Shown: positions 2,500 through 25,007 of the stretch, piece after piece
Numbering within the stretch: position 1 is the first letter of the stretch
Layout of the letters: the number at the start of each line of letters is the position of its first letter
IMG/VR virus record: IMGVR_UViG_3300035438_000527
Location: 1 to 33,077 of that record
Direction: 5' to 3' (one strand)
Source of the DNA: a virus
Length of the DNA stretch: 33,077 bases
Notes under the pieces: model-generated
Database searches by the model: none
Seen by the model: only the letters and a program-made list of their open reading frames with translations
Told to the model about the DNA's origin: nothing
Translations under genes and position numbers: made by a program

Positions 2500-3468
2500 T
2501 TAAGATGATGCTTCATCGTATTTAGCAAAGTACTGAGGTCTTGCATAGTTAACTCCAATATCCATTATTGCAGATAATCTCAATGTTCTTTCTTTGATTA
2601 AATAATCAGCAAATACACCTTGTAAATCACCCTCTAAATTAGTTGAAACCATTACATAAGAATAAGGTACAAAATAGATTTCTCCAGTAGATAATTGTGG
2701 TACAACTCTAACTGTGTCAGAAGTGCCAGGCAACATCATTGTTTGAGAATTACCTTCGCCCATTCTTTCAGCAGTATAGTGATAGTTGTTATCAGTCAAC
2801 AAGTTATCAACCAAGTGATTGAAATCTACTTGTGAACAAATAATCTCACCTGCAAGCCCATTGTCTCTAACCTCAGTCGCAACTGTTCTTGATACACCTT
2901 TGAAAATAGCAAAAGCGTTTGAAGCAGTAACCGCACCAGCATTTGTAAAAGCTGGAATCAAAGGGTCGTTTTTAAATTTCTTAATCAATCCATTAAACAT
3001 AGCAAGTTCAGAGTTACCGCTTCCAGTGTCACCTTTGAAAATTAAGTCTTGAACTTTTTTCTCTAATTTCAATCTTGTTAGAGCTAACATTTGTTGTTCG
3101 ATTGGCAATGATTCCAAAGAATCTTTTGCACCGCTTCTTAATAGTAATTGAGCCCAAGTGTTGTTTAATGAATTATTACATAAAAATAATTCAATACCTA
3201 CTCTTTTAGAAGTCAACTCAACTTGAGTAAAAGCAACTGTACCCGCATCGTCAAATCCGCAGTTAGTCATTTCTTGAAGTTCAGGGTCAACATCGAATAA
3301 TTTTACGATAAAAGTTGAATCAGCTGGTACACCATCTTGAATTACTACTCTTGATAGGAAGTCGTTATTTTCAACTAATGCTGGAATTACTTCCGCTGAA
3401 TTGATGTTAATGTTATCAGCTAAATCGACTGCGGTGTAGCTGAATTTTTCTTTAAATAAATCTTTCAT
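2500..3468 (-). CDS. Major capsid protein (HK97-fold, probable)
   Basis: A 322-aa protein, the usual size for an HK97-fold coat protein. It shows the expected order: an N-terminal helical arm, a E-loop-like region around residues 60-100, a long central helix with EQQMLALTRLKLEKKVQDLIFKGD (about 123-147), an A-domain region, and a C-terminal segment with FADYLIKERTLRLSAIMDIGV. It directly follows the protease-scaffold gene (6-base gap) and precedes the tail tube gene. No cleaved delta domain is obvious, in line with scaffold being supplied by the upstream gene. Assignment rests on size, context and secondary-structure pattern. Confidence 0.8.
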   Translation of the reverse strand: MKDLFKEKFSYTAVDLADNININSAEVIPALVENNDFLSRVVIQDGVPADSTFIVKLFDVDPELQEMTNCGFDDAGTVAFTQVELTSKRVGIELFLCNNSLNNTWAQLLLRSGAKDSLESLPIEQQMLALTRLKLEKKVQDLIFKGDTGSGNSELAMFNGLIKKFKNDPLIPAFTNAGAVTASNAFAIFKGVSRTVATEVRDNGLAGEIICSQVDFNHLVDNLLTDNNYHYTAERMGEGNSQTMMLPGTSDTVRVVPQLSTGEIYFVPYSYVMVSTNLEGDLQGVFADYLIKERTLRLSAIMDIGVNYARPQYFAKYDEASS

Positions 3469-15121: not shown

Positions 15122-15841
15122 TTACAAGTTTAATTGTATCGCAAAACTTGTCCCCCTATGTTTTGCTTGTTTTATCATTCCTGGGTACATTGTAATTAAT
15201 TTTTTTACTGCTGTTTTTTCTTTTGCAATTCTATTACTATCCCTACAACCTCCTCTTAATTGTGTGTGTTCGTGTTGCATAAAAATAATATTTGAACGTA
15301 CAGTTATGCCTCTTTCTGTAAAGTGCCTTAAAGTTAATTCATAATCTTCTTTAACTTCAAAAGTTTCATCAAAATAATAAGAACCATCGTTTATAATTCC
15401 CATACAACTACCTAAGCAAACTCCGTTAAATAAAAAAGGGTTGTAAGAATAATTACTCATTGCGTTTTGAACTGTAAAAAGTCCAAATATTTTAGAATTA
15501 CATTGTTCAGAAACTTCAAATAATTTTTGTAACTCTCCAATGTAAATACTTTCATCTTTAATTCTTTTTACCTTATATTTTTCATCTGTTTTTTCATAAT
15601 ATCCACCTACTAAAAAATCATCATCTAAAAAGAAAATATTGCAATCGTTGTTTTTTAATATCCAATTTCTCGTTGCTGTTATACCCTTTACATCAATAGG
15701 TACTCCAACTATTTTGTTTTTGTAAATAGAATATTGTTTTACTTCGTTTTCAGGAACGTAAATAACTGCGCTTTTAAATATTTCATGCGAAGTAATTAAT
15801 CCAGCCCTTCCTTTACTTGGTATTGCTATCTGAAAATTCAT
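15122..15841 (-). CDS. TET-associated-type glycosyltransferase (TAGT family)
   Basis: A 239-aa enzyme with the layout of the TAGT family, glycosyltransferases linked to phage DNA base modification. It starts FQIAIPSKGRAGLITS (3-18), has VKGITATRNWIL (51-62), and the metal-binding triplet FFLDDDFLVGGYY (D73-D75). A C-terminal part has FMQHEHTQLRGGCRDSNR. It overlaps the ParB-like gene upstream by 29 bases, an association described for this family. The usual acceptor is a hydroxylated base, but no thymidine or cytosine hydroxylase is visible in this genome. Host-supplied modified bases, an unrecognised enzyme, or a protein or sugar acceptor are all possible. Confidence 0.75.
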   Translation of the reverse strand: MNFQIAIPSKGRAGLITSHEIFKSAVIYVPENEVKQYSIYKNKIVGVPIDVKGITATRNWILKNNDCNIFFLDDDFLVGGYYEKTDEKYKVKRIKDESIYIGELQKLFEVSEQCNSKIFGLFTVQNAMSNYSYNPFLFNGVCLGSCMGIINDGSYYFDETFEVKEDYELTLRHFTERGITVRSNIIFMQHEHTQLRGGCRDSNRIAKEKTAVKKLITMYPGMIKQAKHRGTSFAIQLNL

Positions 15842-16445
15842 TTAACACCCTTTCTTTAAATGTTTTTAAATCAAAAACTCTTTCTGTGCTTTTATGGTCT
15901 GCAGTGCCTCCAATTTTAGCACCTCCATTTCTAACTAGACCACATTGAAATATTTGTTGTAATTCAATCCATTCATCACTATCTTCGTCAGCCATAATTA
16001 AAATATATTCTTTTTTTGGTATAACTTGAAGCGATTTAGGTATTTTTATTTCGTCACCCTCTTCAGCTCCGTCAATAGCTTTTAATTCTGGAACATCCAC
16101 CCCCCAATCTTCCAACTGCTCCGAATCCCATTCGTTTAATAAAGCCCAATCCCACTCACCACCACTTACATTATCTTTAATTAAAAACTCCCTTTGTTGT
16201 TCCTCTGTAAGGTTATCAGCAACTATTATCGGTACTTCTTTAAGTCCAGCTTCTTTACACGCTTTAAATCGCATATTCCCACCAAGTATAACCATATCAC
16301 TATTGACAACGATAGGTCTAATATCTAACATCTCAGGAAAATCTTTAATAGACTTTACTAACTTCTCAAACTTATCATCTTTAATTAAACGAGGGTTGTT
16401 TGGGTTAAGTTTTATTTCCGATATTTTAATCTTTTTTGACTGCAT
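15813..16445 (-). CDS. ParB/Srx-domain protein
   Basis: A 210-aa protein. Residues 6-85 form a ParB/Srx-type domain with ISEIKLNPNNPRLI, PIVVNSDMVILGGNMRF and the conserved GGNMRFKACKEAG (55-67), then VPIIVAD and an LTEEQQREFLIKDN helix typical of phage ParB-like proteins. The C-terminal half is poorly conserved and contains EYILIMADEDSDEWIELQQIF. There is no ParA partner and no parS-like site, so a role in partition is unlikely. Phage copies lie near terminase, methyltransferase and base-modifying genes, and CTP binding or a nuclease/kinase activity has been proposed for the fold. It overlaps the TAGT glycosyltransferase gene. Confidence 0.85.
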   Translation of the reverse strand: MQSKKIKISEIKLNPNNPRLIKDDKFEKLVKSIKDFPEMLDIRPIVVNSDMVILGGNMRFKACKEAGLKEVPIIVADNLTEEQQREFLIKDNVSGGEWDWALLNEWDSEQLEDWGVDVPELKAIDGAEEGDEIKIPKSLQVIPKKEYILIMADEDSDEWIELQQIFQCGLVRNGGAKIGGTADHKSTERVFDLKTFKERVLNEFSDSNTK

Positions 16446-21067: not shown

Positions 21068-21252
21068 TAGTTTTGGAATTTATCTTTATTACAAAATACT
21101 TGAACTTGCAAAGGTGTGTCGAATATCGCTATGCTAATATGCTTATTGTAGCGTTTACTAACGATGTACTTTCCTGAGTGTATCGTTACGAAATGCCCTG
21201 AACAAACGTAAGTTTCAGTTATGGCAAAGGGTTGTCTAATTAGTGGGTTCAT
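21067..21252 (-). CDS. Small hypothetical protein
   Basis: A 61-aa protein (MNPLIRQPFAITETYVCSGH) of beta-rich composition with two cysteines. It overlaps the primase stop by ATGA and the methyltransferase start by TAATG. No domain recognised. Confidence 0.55.
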   Translation of the reverse strand: MNPLIRQPFAITETYVCSGHFVTIHSGKYIVSKRYNKHISIAIFDTPLQVQVFCNKDKFQN

Positions 21253-23531
21253 TTTTCTAATTCTTTTATAAAGTTATAAATATGTCTTCTTGAAACTCCT
21301 ATTAATTCTGCAGCTTCTTTTTTGTTTAAATTAGGATTTGATTTATAAAGTATTTCAAATTGTTCCTTAGGTGTTAATTCATCATTTCTTTTTAATACCT
21401 TTTTAATCTTATTTACTTCGCTTGAATTAACTTTAATTTTCTTTGCCATTGAAATAAAATACTTGCTTAATTTTTCAGCGTTTAAAATACTTTCTTTTGA
21501 TATTACACCTAAATCTCCTTTATCTTCATAAGCATTTATAGTATTAATAATTAATGCAAACCTTGGAATATAAGATTTTTGTTTAGGTAACATCGATTTC
21601 ATATACTCATTTTCATCATCATCATTTTGAGTTTGAGTAATCTCATTGTATATCCTTATCCATTCTACTTTTGCATCCTCTGAAAATATAGCTATGTTTG
21701 GTTCAATATCATCATCATTGTTGTACTTAACAAAGGTGTTGATTATACTATTGTGAAAATGAATTATATTATCGTTATACCAATTTAATAAATCTTCTGC
21801 TATTTGATTTTCGTTGTATGTTTCAATTTCTAATTCAGGAAATGATAAAAGCATTCTATCTATAAATCCATTATCTTTATTTTCATCAGTATAAAAAGAA
21901 CTTAAAATGCTCGGTTGAATACCGCCTAACACACTTATAAAAGGTTTTGATACAAAACTACTTGTTGAAGTTTTACGATTCAATGATACACTTTTACCGC
22001 TCCAAGTTGATAACCAAAACTCCAAATCAGAACCAGCACGATATTTGTTCATATCCTTTAACCATCCAGCAAGTTCATCTTTAAATACTCCAATACTATT
22101 TTTGTTTTGTTCGTGCAATTCAACTAATGCTTCAAGTGTAATATCATTCGCTATAAATTGAGTTTTTTTAGGTTCTTTTATTTCCTCTGAATGTTCCTTT
22201 TGGTCTTTACTCATTTTTTGATAAGCAATGTATTTTTTATTTTCTTTAATGTACTTTGTAATTTCTCGGTTATTAGCTTTTATTAAAGGTCTTATTACAT
22301 TGTCAATACTTGGTGTTTTACCTAAACCAGCTTTACCAACTATCGAAATCCAAACGGTGGCAGTCTCAGTCCATCCTTTTTTAACTTCAATATGAATAGA
22401 GTTTCCAATCATTACTGAAAAAAGCCAAATCATTGAGCAACCCATGTAATCTACTGAACTATCCAAGGTTCTATTACATTCTTGTAAATAGTGCCTTATT
22501 GTTACTGGAAAAATATCCAAAGGAAATTCAGTGTTAAAGTTTTTATCTTTTAACTCTATTGGTTCAATATCAACTTTTTTAACGTATCTCGATCCAAAAC
22601 CTTTTTTATAAATATCCTTAGCTGATTCATTAAAATTACCTTGGTGGTATTTTATAGTATAAACTGCAAATGGTGTTAATAATACTTCGTTTGGATATTG
22701 AGTTCCAGTTGTAAAAAGAAACATACAATTACTGTTTTTGTAAACATATCCACTATGTGGAGAAGTTGCCCCATTTCTTTTTATAATGTACTTATCATTC
22801 AAATTCCTTACTATTGTAAATTCATCTGAAATCAAATCCATTACGTTTTCTTTTTCGTTATAATCTACCCAAGGTTTTAATTCTACTTCGTGAAATTCCT
22901 TTGCTTCTTTTTTTGTAGGCTCGTGAATTATTGTAGGTTCTTTGTAGTCGTAAAACTTTGAACACTGCATTAAAACATCTCGGTCTTTTTCTGATATTTC
23001 TTGCAGTTCGTAATAACTTCTTTTACTAATTTTTTTATCATACATAAAACAATAACCTCCCTTTCCTTTGGTTTCAATTATTGCCTCTTTCATTCCTTTT
23101 AGCCTTGCTACTTTAACATTACCCTCAAGGCTTTTACATTTATAAATTATATGATAACCATTATTAACGGTTTTATAAATTACAAATTTATCATCAAAGT
23201 CTGCAATGTTATCTTTTAAAAAACTAAGGTATTCATCCCAAAAATCTGTTTGAGCTTTTAGAGTTGGTAAAACTTTTAAATCAATATCGACTACTTCAAT
23301 ATCATTAAAACCAGTGCAATAACCAAGAGCGGTTGTAGCAGGTATTTCAGTTTCATCTTTTTTAAATATACCACCTTTATAATTGTAGTATTCGATTAAT
23401 TTTTCTCTACTTAGTTTCTTTGTTTGTTGTTCAGCCCATCTAAAATTAGGCACTTTTGATTCTCCAACTGTAATAATTGAATAATCATTTTGAAGCATCT
23501 TTAATGCTTGCTCTAGTTTTTTATCTTCCAT
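21249..23531 (-). CDS. PrimPol-DUF3987 primase-helicase with C-terminal HTH
   Basis: The main replication enzyme, 760 aa. Residues 5-175 resemble a primase-polymerase domain: GFNDIEVVDIDLK with D82 and D84, NGYHIIYK (H127), and ETKGKGGYCFMYD. Residues about 330-640 match DUF3987, a P-loop helicase family: Walker A GKAGLGKTPS (399-408), acidic pair VFKDELAGW (D485, E486), and FISVLGGIQPSIL (531-543). The end has a helix-turn-helix KKEAAELIGVSRRHIYNFIK. I chose the ATG at 23529-23531 because AAGGAGG lies five bases upstream, a rare strong ribosome site in this genome; ATGs 15 and 18 bases earlier are possible. It overlaps the preceding gene by 11 bases. Confidence 0.88.
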   Translation of the reverse strand: MEDKKLEQALKMLQNDYSIITVGESKVPNFRWAEQQTKKLSREKLIEYYNYKGGIFKKDETEIPATTALGYCTGFNDIEVVDIDLKVLPTLKAQTDFWDEYLSFLKDNIADFDDKFVIYKTVNNGYHIIYKCKSLEGNVKVARLKGMKEAIIETKGKGGYCFMYDKKISKRSYYELQEISEKDRDVLMQCSKFYDYKEPTIIHEPTKKEAKEFHEVELKPWVDYNEKENVMDLISDEFTIVRNLNDKYIIKRNGATSPHSGYVYKNSNCMFLFTTGTQYPNEVLLTPFAVYTIKYHQGNFNESAKDIYKKGFGSRYVKKVDIEPIELKDKNFNTEFPLDIFPVTIRHYLQECNRTLDSSVDYMGCSMIWLFSVMIGNSIHIEVKKGWTETATVWISIVGKAGLGKTPSIDNVIRPLIKANNREITKYIKENKKYIAYQKMSKDQKEHSEEIKEPKKTQFIANDITLEALVELHEQNKNSIGVFKDELAGWLKDMNKYRAGSDLEFWLSTWSGKSVSLNRKTSTSSFVSKPFISVLGGIQPSILSSFYTDENKDNGFIDRMLLSFPELEIETYNENQIAEDLLNWYNDNIIHFHNSIINTFVKYNNDDDIEPNIAIFSEDAKVEWIRIYNEITQTQNDDDENEYMKSMLPKQKSYIPRFALIINTINAYEDKGDLGVISKESILNAEKLSKYFISMAKKIKVNSSEVNKIKKVLKRNDELTPKEQFEILYKSNPNLNKKEAAELIGVSRRHIYNFIKELEK

Positions 23532-23808
23532 AATGCCCTCCTTCATCAAATCCCATTAAACAAATCCCATCAACGTAAATAGAAACTAAATACTCACATT
23601 GCTTATACCATAAGTAAGAAAATAAATGATAAAACAAATCAACCTCGCTTCTATCTACTAAATCAATCATTAAAGTTCCTTTGTGGTCTCTAATTCTTTT
23701 AATTTGAGTTAACTTTTTAGGTTCTAATTTGCAAAACTGCACTAATACTTTTGATAACCTTTCATCTGTTTCGGACTTCCCTCCGCCATCTGTTCTAAAT
23801 ATTTCCAT
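23521..23808 (-). CDS. Hypothetical protein, first gene of replication operon
   Basis: A 95-aa protein (MEIFRTDGGGKSETDERLSK) with a mixed fold, LTQIKRIRDHKGTLMIDL and a hydrophobic end EYLVSIYVDGICLMGF. No domain recognised. It is the first gene after the origin region, preceded by a hairpin (23829-23880) and a TAnnTTTG box (23919-23926). The AAGGAGG at the end of this gene drives the primase start, so the two are tightly linked. It could be a replication accessory protein. Confidence 0.65.
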   Translation of the reverse strand: MEIFRTDGGGKSETDERLSKVLVQFCKLEPKKLTQIKRIRDHKGTLMIDLVDRSEVDLFYHLFSYLWYKQCEYLVSIYVDGICLMGFDEGGHYGR

Positions 23809-23828
23809 ATTTAATTTATTTTAATAAA

Positions 23829-23880
23829 AAAGCCCTTTACAAAGTTGCCACGGTCAAACAGCTTCTAAGTAAAAGGCTTT
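23829..23880 (-). terminator. Leader hairpin with T run upstream of primase operon
   Basis: In minus-strand RNA, AAAGCCTTTTAC (23880-23869) pairs with GTAAAGGGCTTT (23840-23829), 12 bp with one G-U wobble, followed by TTTATTAA; six T in a row span the stem end. The loop is 28 bases. It lies between the candidate promoter at 23919 and the first gene at 23808. Since the upstream gene has its own terminator at 24238-24271, this one looks like an attenuator in the leader. Confidence 0.6.
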
Positions 23881-23918
23881 AATAAAATTTCTTATTTTGT
23901 AATTGACCGTTACGAATA

Positions 23919-23926
23919 CAAAGATA
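23919..23926 (-). promoter_or_regulatory. Candidate -7 promoter box for replication operon
   Basis: The minus strand reads TATCTTTG, matching TAnnTTTG. A TTTG (23949-23952) lies 22 bases upstream, slightly beyond the usual 19-21. The first iteron begins 31 bases past that, so an iteron-binding protein could affect this promoter. Activity is inferred. Confidence 0.5.
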
Positions 23927-23982
23927 TAAATAATTTTAATATACAACACAAAGTAATAAAAATATTTTACCGTGAGAAGTCC

Positions 23983-24232
23983 GTGTGAAATGAGTGTGAA
24001 ATGAGTGTGAAATGAAAAACGGTGTAACTTATTGAACATCAGCAAAAAAGTGTGAAATGAGTGTGAAATTTCACAAAAACCGTATTTTAAAAAAAATTAA
24101 AATTAAAATTAAAATATTTTATAGTGTGCAATCGCGTGCATTTCACACATTTTTATTAGTAATCAGTTAGTTATGTTATAATCATTTCACACTTGTTCAC
24201 ACTTGTTCACACTTGTTCACACTTGTTCACAC
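23983..24232. other. Probable replication origin (iterons, AT-rich core, palindrome)
   Basis: This fills most of the 484-base gene-free stretch 23809-24292. Left block: GTGTGAAATGA, 11 bp, three tandem copies (23983-24015), and two more at 24050-24071, the last ending in TTT. The latter overlaps a perfect 14-bp palindrome TGTGAAATTTCACA (24062-24075). Middle: 41 bases of only A and T (24083-24123). A TTTCACAC lies at 24141-24148. Right block: TTCACACTTG, 10 bp, four copies plus a partial (24186-24232), in the opposite orientation. The right block reads TTGTTCACA at each junction, one base from the DnaA box TTATNCACA. A DnaA-domain-IV gene and the primase gene flank it. Confidence 0.75.
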
Positions 24233-24237
24233 ACTCC

Positions 24238-24271
24238 AAAAAAAAACCCACCTCAACTGAATGAAGTGGGT
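24238..24271 (-). terminator. Rho-independent terminator after DUF3127 gene
   Basis: In minus-strand sense ACCCACTTCA (24271-24262) pairs with TGAGGTGGGT (24255-24246) with one mismatch, then a run of T (A run through 24246). It lies 21 bases past the stop of the DUF3127 gene and separates that operon from the origin. Confidence 0.85.
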
Positions 24272-24292
24272 AATTATTATTGATGTGGTTAT

Positions 24293-24586
24293 TTAAAACG
24301 CTTCATCTGACTTCGGCAATCCCTCACCGCTTATTTTCCACGCTTGTAAGCTAACATAATACTTACCGTTATATTCATTGCCTCTTACATTGAATCCAAC
24401 TGTAACAGGTTGCCCTATACCGTAGCTATCAAGTAGCTTACATTTGTCTTTTACAAATTCTAATTTGATGTCTTGAGGATAGTCGCCCTCAGTTGTGATA
24501 ACGAACTCACGTTTTTGAAATCCTGAATCATAAACTTGTGCGTCTGTGATTACTTTGATCGTTCCTTTTAATTCTAATGTTTCCAT
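24293..24586 (-). CDS. DUF3127 family OB-fold single-strand DNA-binding-like protein
   Basis: A 97-aa protein of the DUF3127 family, common in Bacteroidetes and their phages and thought to have an OB fold related to SSB. Diagnostic parts are FQKREFVITTEGDYPQDIKLEF (23-44), the turn IGQPVTVGFNVRGNEYNGKY and the ending VSLQAWKISGEG. It lies between the DnaA-domain-IV gene and the origin, so a role in handling single-stranded DNA during replication is likely but not shown. Confidence 0.85.
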   Translation of the reverse strand: METLELKGTIKVITDAQVYDSGFQKREFVITTEGDYPQDIKLEFVKDKCKLLDSYGIGQPVTVGFNVRGNEYNGKYYVSLQAWKISGEGLPKSDEAF

Positions 24587-24611
24587 TTTTGTTTTTATTT
24601 ATTTGTTTTTG

Positions 24612-25007
24612 TTAATTTACTTTTTCTACTTGGCTTAAAATAGCCTCAATTCTATTGACCAAATCATTCACATCACTATACATTAATTGGTTTTCTATTT
24701 TATTACAAGCGTGCAATACGGTTGCGTGGTGTCTGTTTAAATGACGTCCAATAACTTCTATTTGTTTTTTGGTATGTTTGTGTGCAATATAGAAAAAAAG
24801 GTGTCTAGCGGTCATTATATTATTTTTTCTAGTATTACTTCTTAATTGATACGCTTTCAATTCAGTAACGTGGCAAACAACTTCTAAAATATTATCTAAT
24901 GTTTTCCCTTTTATATTAATATCCAGTTGAAGTATATCCATTGGTACGTCTAATTTGTGCATCTCTTGGACTATCGTTGGCAGTCCGATGTAAGTGTGTG
25001 GATTCAT
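24612..25007 (-). CDS. Stand-alone DnaA domain IV protein
   Basis: A 131-aa protein whose residues 38-108 match the DNA-binding domain IV of DnaA. The sequence runs ELKAYQLRSNTRKNNIMTARHL and then IGRHLNRHHATVLHACNKIE (86-105), close to the DnaA signature (GGRDHSTVLHA). No AAA+ ATPase domain is present; the first 37 residues are a short unrelated leader. It would recognise DnaA-box-like DNA and either initiate phage replication or compete with host DnaA. The array of TTGTTCACA units just downstream (24186-24232) is the obvious target. Confidence 0.85.
   Translation of the reverse strand: MNPHTYIGLPTIVQEMHKLDVPMDILQLDINIKGKTLDNILEVVCHVTELKAYQLRSNTRKNNIMTARHLFFYIAHKHTKKQIEVIGRHLNRHHATVLHACNKIENQLMYSDVNDLVNRIEAILSQVEKVN

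Follow-up and report, generated by a model that had tools for sequence, protein, structure and literature searches.

A repeat cluster in a complete IMG/VR virus record of 33,077 bp (the window, that is, the whole stretch of DNA analysed) is very probably the replication start of a Bacteroidota phage, read by the C-terminal end of a primase-helicase encoded nearby. As judged from sequence comparison, a three-residue code linking this helicase to its iterons holds over more than 100 related uncultured phages.

Anatomy of the array and of its candidate initiator

Within 248 bp (23984-24231), the array contains 12 TGTGAA cores, against about 0.2 expected, whereas the 33-kb window as a whole has 30 copies of this hexamer and shuffled sequences give 26.5. 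On the plus strand, cores of the left set start at 23984, 23995 and 24006 and then at 24051 and 24062, in 11-bp steps; five minus-strand cores of the right set extend from 24186 to 24226 in 10-bp steps, and one extra minus-strand core is isolated at 24142. These positions bear out two opposed sets sharing one core, as described in an earlier sequence-only reading, and the palindrome, the A/T-only core (exactly 41 bp and the longest such run in the window) and the four right-set copies of TTGTTCACA that it listed are likewise present, with one more copy of the latter elsewhere. The top 7-mer of the window is found in 11 copies inside 350 bp, compared to at most four in comparable flanks resampled with a first-order Markov model, the null used for array 7-mer counts. 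GC skew, which had been put forward as a check on the origin, tracks gene direction and has no turning point at the array.

Table 1. Features of the window around the iteron array and the initiator operon.
Feature	Position	Strand	Basis or remark
Primase-polymerase/MCM-like AAA+ helicase (DUF3987), 766 aa, proposed initiator	21249..23549	-	Pfam, AlphaFold, PDB folds
C-terminal helix-turn-helix (HTH), aa 727-766	21252..21371	-	AlphaFold helices; co-variation
Recognition helix, aa 754-765, with R754, R755 and N759	21255-21290	-	
ORF of 95 aa without a family match, between helicase and array	23521..23808	-	No match in L002, the swapped relative
Leader RNA of the initiator operon, predicted to be structured	23826..23920	-	12-bp hairpin with a T-run after it; its loop TTGACCGT pairs with segment ACGGTCAA
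Left set of GTGTGAAATGA iterons, one every 11 bp, with the palindrome at its end	23983..24075	+	
14-bp palindrome TGTGAAATTTCACA	24062-24075		Closes the left set
41-bp A/T-only stretch between the sets	24083..24123		Candidate DNA-unwinding element
Lone iteron copy next to the A/T core	24139..24148	-	
Right iteron set, AGTGTGAACA units, 10-bp steps, five cores	24183..24235	-	
Terminator-like hairpin between the SSB/DnaA-IV operon and the array	24239..24278	-	Inverted repeat, then T-run on the minus strand; inspection
SSB-like DUF3127 gene, outside the iteron cassette	24293..24586	-	2.5e-27; the swap with L002 has its junction at the end of this gene
Stand-alone DnaA domain IV (DnaA-IV) protein, 131 aa, neighbour of the array	24612..25007	-	Bac_DnaA_C, 9.5e-21

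The 766-aa protein matches DUF3987 in Pfam (PF13148; 2.8e-56) and both helicase and DNA polymerase/primase families in PHROGs. Its AlphaFold model has a mean pLDDT of 85.5 and a pTM of 0.59, so that domain placement is uncertain; the predicted fold resembles, in its N-terminal part, the primase-polymerase of pRN1 ORF904 and, in its central part, MCM AAA+ helicases. Taken together, Pfam, PHROGs and the predicted fold place a DUF3987 ATPase and an AEP-type primase-polymerase domain in the same chain. The C-terminal helices (727-737, 743-750 and 754-765) form a three-helix HTH in the model, with R754, R755 and N759 located where the last helix starts. The protein is predicted to be a self-sufficient initiator combining primase-polymerase, MCM-like AAA+ helicase and HTH and working in the manner of SaPI Rep or P4 alpha. 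Primase-fused DUF3987 ATPases are predicted helicases of mobile elements (PMC5862659). A PDB sequence search with the 766-aa helicase returned no relative, the DUF927 and D5-type Pfam models did not match it, and no cultured phage in the phage collection searched covers 80% of it. In the packaging half, the window also encodes (15813-16445, minus strand) a 210-aa ParB-like nuclease or partition-type protein (PHROG 620 and 940).

We consider it highly likely that the array serves as origin for a phage replicon that is self-contained and run by this helicase and its iteron-reading HTH. The 766-aa protein would bind GTGTGAA iterons via the HTH, assemble on the two opposed sets, melt the A/T core between them and load itself as a hexameric helicase; its N-terminal primase-polymerase would prime synthesis, and replication would start bidirectionally at the array.

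Arrays and a recognition code across helicase relatives

Four IMG/VR scans with family helicases and one bacterial-genome scan, which contributed three Bacteroidota MAG contigs, yielded 144 distinct proteins; the scans behind these loci were pattern scans started from close relatives, and some contigs are partial. An array was called when a 350-bp stretch adjoining the helicase gene on its 5' or 3' side contained at least five exact 7-mers. Such arrays adjoin the gene in 129 of the 144 relatives (null maximum, 4), lying 5' in 67 and 3' in 62, whereas seven relatives with both flanks present have none by the five-copy rule. The 3' arrays begin at the end of the helicase gene, at a median of 10 bp ahead of the stop codon. 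Typically, the arrays span about 230 bp and their spacing is most often 10-12 bp; A/T-richness marks the largest gap, which exceeds its own locus in A/T content in 117 of the 129 cases. One relative (L036) carries at 2676-3006, about 1 kb upstream of the helicase, a 15-bp tandem repeat (AGCGTTGGATAA...) of more than 20 copies that is unlike the iterons.

To relate iterons to proteins, array motifs were aligned blind to the proteins, seeded on the motif of the window, and sequence-weighted mutual information was computed between every motif position and every protein column, over a set of 128 proteins with an effective number of about 39. Of all columns of the protein, those of R754 (base 3), R755 (base 5) and N759 (bases 7 and 8) rank first; this triad was first spotted by eye and then tested on this larger set, which contains those first sequences. 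Where residue 754 is R or K, core position 3 is G (118/118), and where it is L, V or I, the base is T (10/10). At residue 755, R goes with G at core position 5 in 32 of 39 cases and Q, M, V, T, I or N with A in all 67 (G in none), while at residue 759, R goes with C at core position 7 (30/30) and N with A (49 of 51 readable). Arg-G and Gln-A are classical contacts, and the SRRHIYN segment of the window, with its R754, R755 and N759, fits GTGTGAA. The exceptions in these raw counts are seven R755 without G and four K755 with G. Several of the former are, on inspection, near-palindromic motifs or places where the blind motif alignment slipped in register, and one (L223) looks like a true exception; K755 is found with TGGGAC iterons, and the code is therefore not one-to-one.

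With the C-terminus left out of the tree, phylogenetically independent contrasts gave 38 changes in agreement, none opposed and seven unchanged for the three residues together (agree/oppose/unchanged: 17/0/6 for R755, 16/0/1 for R759 and 5/0/0 for R754). Among helicase pairs at least 90% identical outside the HTH, all 50 with the same triad have the same core; in 22 pairs both differ, in four the triad differs and the core is the same, and none combines the same triad with a different core. For instance, L064 and L076 have R versus Q at position 755 and TGCGAAC versus TGTAAAC iterons. Over aa 30-690, the helicases of L045 and L049 share 98.9% identity; their HTHs differ, and their iterons are GTGTGCA and GTGTAAA, respectively. 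Outside the HTH, helicase identity is about 99% in both L045/L049 and L062/L066, with HTH and iterons differing within each pair, and we read the two cases as recent events of recombination at the 3' gene end that took the adjacent 3' array along. Co-variation and natural swaps indicate that the C-terminal domain sets iteron specificity. A code with so many natural single-domain swaps could make origin specificity predictable and directly testable.

Other candidate readers and the leader RNA

The sequence-only reading also reported a stand-alone DnaA domain IV gene about 380 bases from the array, correctly so: 377 bp separate the end of this gene from the array, and the SSB-like gene and a terminator-like hairpin lie in between. 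The 131-aa product matches Bac_DnaA_C only and has no AAA+ domain III, hence lacking the full layout of a DnaA initiator; its closest solved relatives are 2Z4R and 1J1V. That this protein, alone or by recruiting host DnaA, reads the iterons and starts replication there appears very unlikely, although its gene is close by, the right-set units are a single mismatch away from the DnaA box, and the protein retains the residue aligned with E. coli DnaA R399 as well as two of the four signature residues in the recognition helix. In it, the base-contacting D433 of E. coli is replaced by H, whereas two Bacteroidota DnaA proteins keep D (RHHATVLHAC versus KDHATVLHAC). The strict DnaA box TTWTNCACA is absent from the array and occurs five times in the whole window, against 7.2 expected, and the bases of the iteron are accounted for by, and follow, the HTH residues of the helicase. 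The DnaA-box likeness on which the earlier interpretation was built thus does not underlie the array; TTGTTCACA resembles the box because the recognition sequence of the helicase is GTGTGAA.

A natural exchange bears on the same question. In L002 and L003, the DnaA-IV protein is 97% identical to that of the window and the SSB-like protein 99% over 87 residues, whereas the primase-helicase is only 47-48% identical and the array at the same spot consists of an unrelated iteron, GGTGTAACC. At the DNA level, flanks of 86-97% identity enclose one replaced block (approximately 21254-24317) comprising helicase and array. In L004 (DnaA-IV 63% identical), another gene occupies that place and no array is evident. 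Because of this swap and the situation in L004, the iteron is seen to track the helicase, not DnaA-IV, and the idea that DnaA-IV or captured host DnaA acts on the array fails where the array changes completely while DnaA-IV stays 97% identical. Nor is the proposed pairing of the two general in related phages: a PF08299 scan of 50 records located DnaA_C in nine of the 47 helicase-bearing records (some of them fragments), most of which carry arrays, and most array-bearing helicase relatives belong to records without DnaA-IV. The DnaA_C-like proteins in nine helicase-carrying records are more distant ones (26-55 bits), and when DnaA-IV relatives were sought more widely by means of an alignment, L002 and L004 came up again and no others. 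Array and helicase would thus form one exchangeable cassette, a view supported by these comparisons. The DnaA-IV protein is very probably a separate module beside the array and may be a competitor or regulator on host or phage DnaA-type sites. Of the earlier proposal, the origin itself finds support in analogy and comparative anatomy, and DnaA-IV or host DnaA as its reader does not; DnaA-box look-alikes beside a DnaA-like gene need not mean DnaA control.

The initiator operon is preceded by a predicted structured leader, in which a Bacteroidota-type promoter element (TAnnTTTG) is followed by segment A and a terminator-like hairpin whose loop pairs with A. Under a strict rule (hairpin end no more than 45 nt from the start codon), 52 of the 125 helicase leaders show this form, compared to 41 of 890 other genes, and segment A comes in 36 different sequences. 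Segment A lies inside its own small hairpin in 68% of 47 distinct cases versus 26% with swapped flanks, which suggests a kissing loop. The leader of the window precedes the 95-aa ORF and hence falls outside the strict count, but the pairing is still there, and its hairpin has a predicted energy of -20.4 kcal/mol (z -2.9). Predicted pseudoknot or kissing-loop leaders are found just 5' of the helicase gene in L064, L070, L077, L080, L115, L250 and others, and the pairing sequences differ in almost every phage. Rfam searches of array and leaders gave a chance match in the window (E = 0.19) and none in five relatives. We propose that the leader RNA controls expression of the initiator.

In the window and other phages with upstream arrays, the array lies just upstream of this promoter and leader, as would be expected of an operator bank at which the helicase protein represses or times its own operon, with the origin elsewhere. 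We regard this as unlikely: in 62 of the 129 relatives the array begins where the helicase gene ends, away from the promoter of that gene; 8-13 copies across about 230 bp around A/T-rich gaps exceed the needs of an operator; and such sites are origins, or proposed origins, of SaPI Rep and SCCmec Cch2 (PMC7581432). The location of the 95-aa ORF between array and helicase could also point to this small protein, or a host factor, as the reader, with the helicase merely co-inherited. However, tblastn gave two partial hits to the ORF, which is missing from nearly all array-bearing relatives, co-variation places three residues of one recognition helix at the top of the whole helicase, and swaps limited to the HTH alter the iteron; we give this explanation almost no credence.

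With the array as an origin read by the helicase, a broader picture can be entertained, tentatively and with slightly more doubt than confidence: a compact exchangeable replicon, consisting of primase-polymerase/helicase-HTH, cognate origin and leader RNA, might be spread through a large group of uncultured Bacteroidota phages, its iteron-reading residues and RNA contacts being constantly re-coded against cross-replication and cross-regulation between related phages sharing a cell. If so, the simplicity of the iteron code would allow an origin to be predicted from three residues. The comparisons predict origins and initiators in a phage group with no cultured full-protein member in the collection searched, and suggest rapid diversification of phage origins. 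Such rapid diversification is reported of Vibrio PLE origins, which are under attack by origin-directed nucleases (PMC8263062).

Comparison with known replication systems

The closest parallels come from staphylococcal elements. As cited in PMC7581432, SaPI Rep is an initiator helicase whose C-terminal domain recognizes iterons beside its own gene (Ubeda et al. 2007). The phage helicase would share with it C-terminal recognition of short iterons next to its own gene, but SaPI Rep is a DUF927 or D5-type ATPase of a satellite, whereas the phage protein is a DUF3987 helicase from a phage of another phylum, with arrays on either side of the gene, unlike in SaPI. SCCmec Cch2 is a self-loading helicase, the isolated C-terminal domain of which binds AAGTG direct repeats downstream of the gene (PMC7581432). 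Self-loading, as proposed for the phage helicase, and a C-terminal domain acting on repeats near the gene would be common to both systems; Cch2 differs in its three repeats, separate primase and D5-type helicase.

Fusion of the activities in one chain also has counterparts. The alpha protein of satellite phage P4 joins primase, helicase and a C-terminal origin-binding part, with GGTGAACA-type iterons. By description, this is the layout of the 766-aa protein; alpha has a TOPRIM-type primase and a helicase of another family. The archaeal plasmid protein pRN1 ORF904 (1RNI, 3M1M) similarly has an N-terminal primase-polymerase fold, the part compared here, fused to a helicase. In Vibrio PLE, the DNA-binding domain of the RepA initiator co-varies with the origin, and the two are swapped together as one module (PMC8263062), as in the phage cassette, but RepA is of the RepA_N type, binds DNA through its N-terminus, has no helicase and uses iterons of about 30 bp. 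The literature searched contained nothing relevant on iteron origins of Bacteroidota phages and no paper on this system. Overall, there is precedent for the mechanism, and novelty appears to lie with the family, hosts and residue code.
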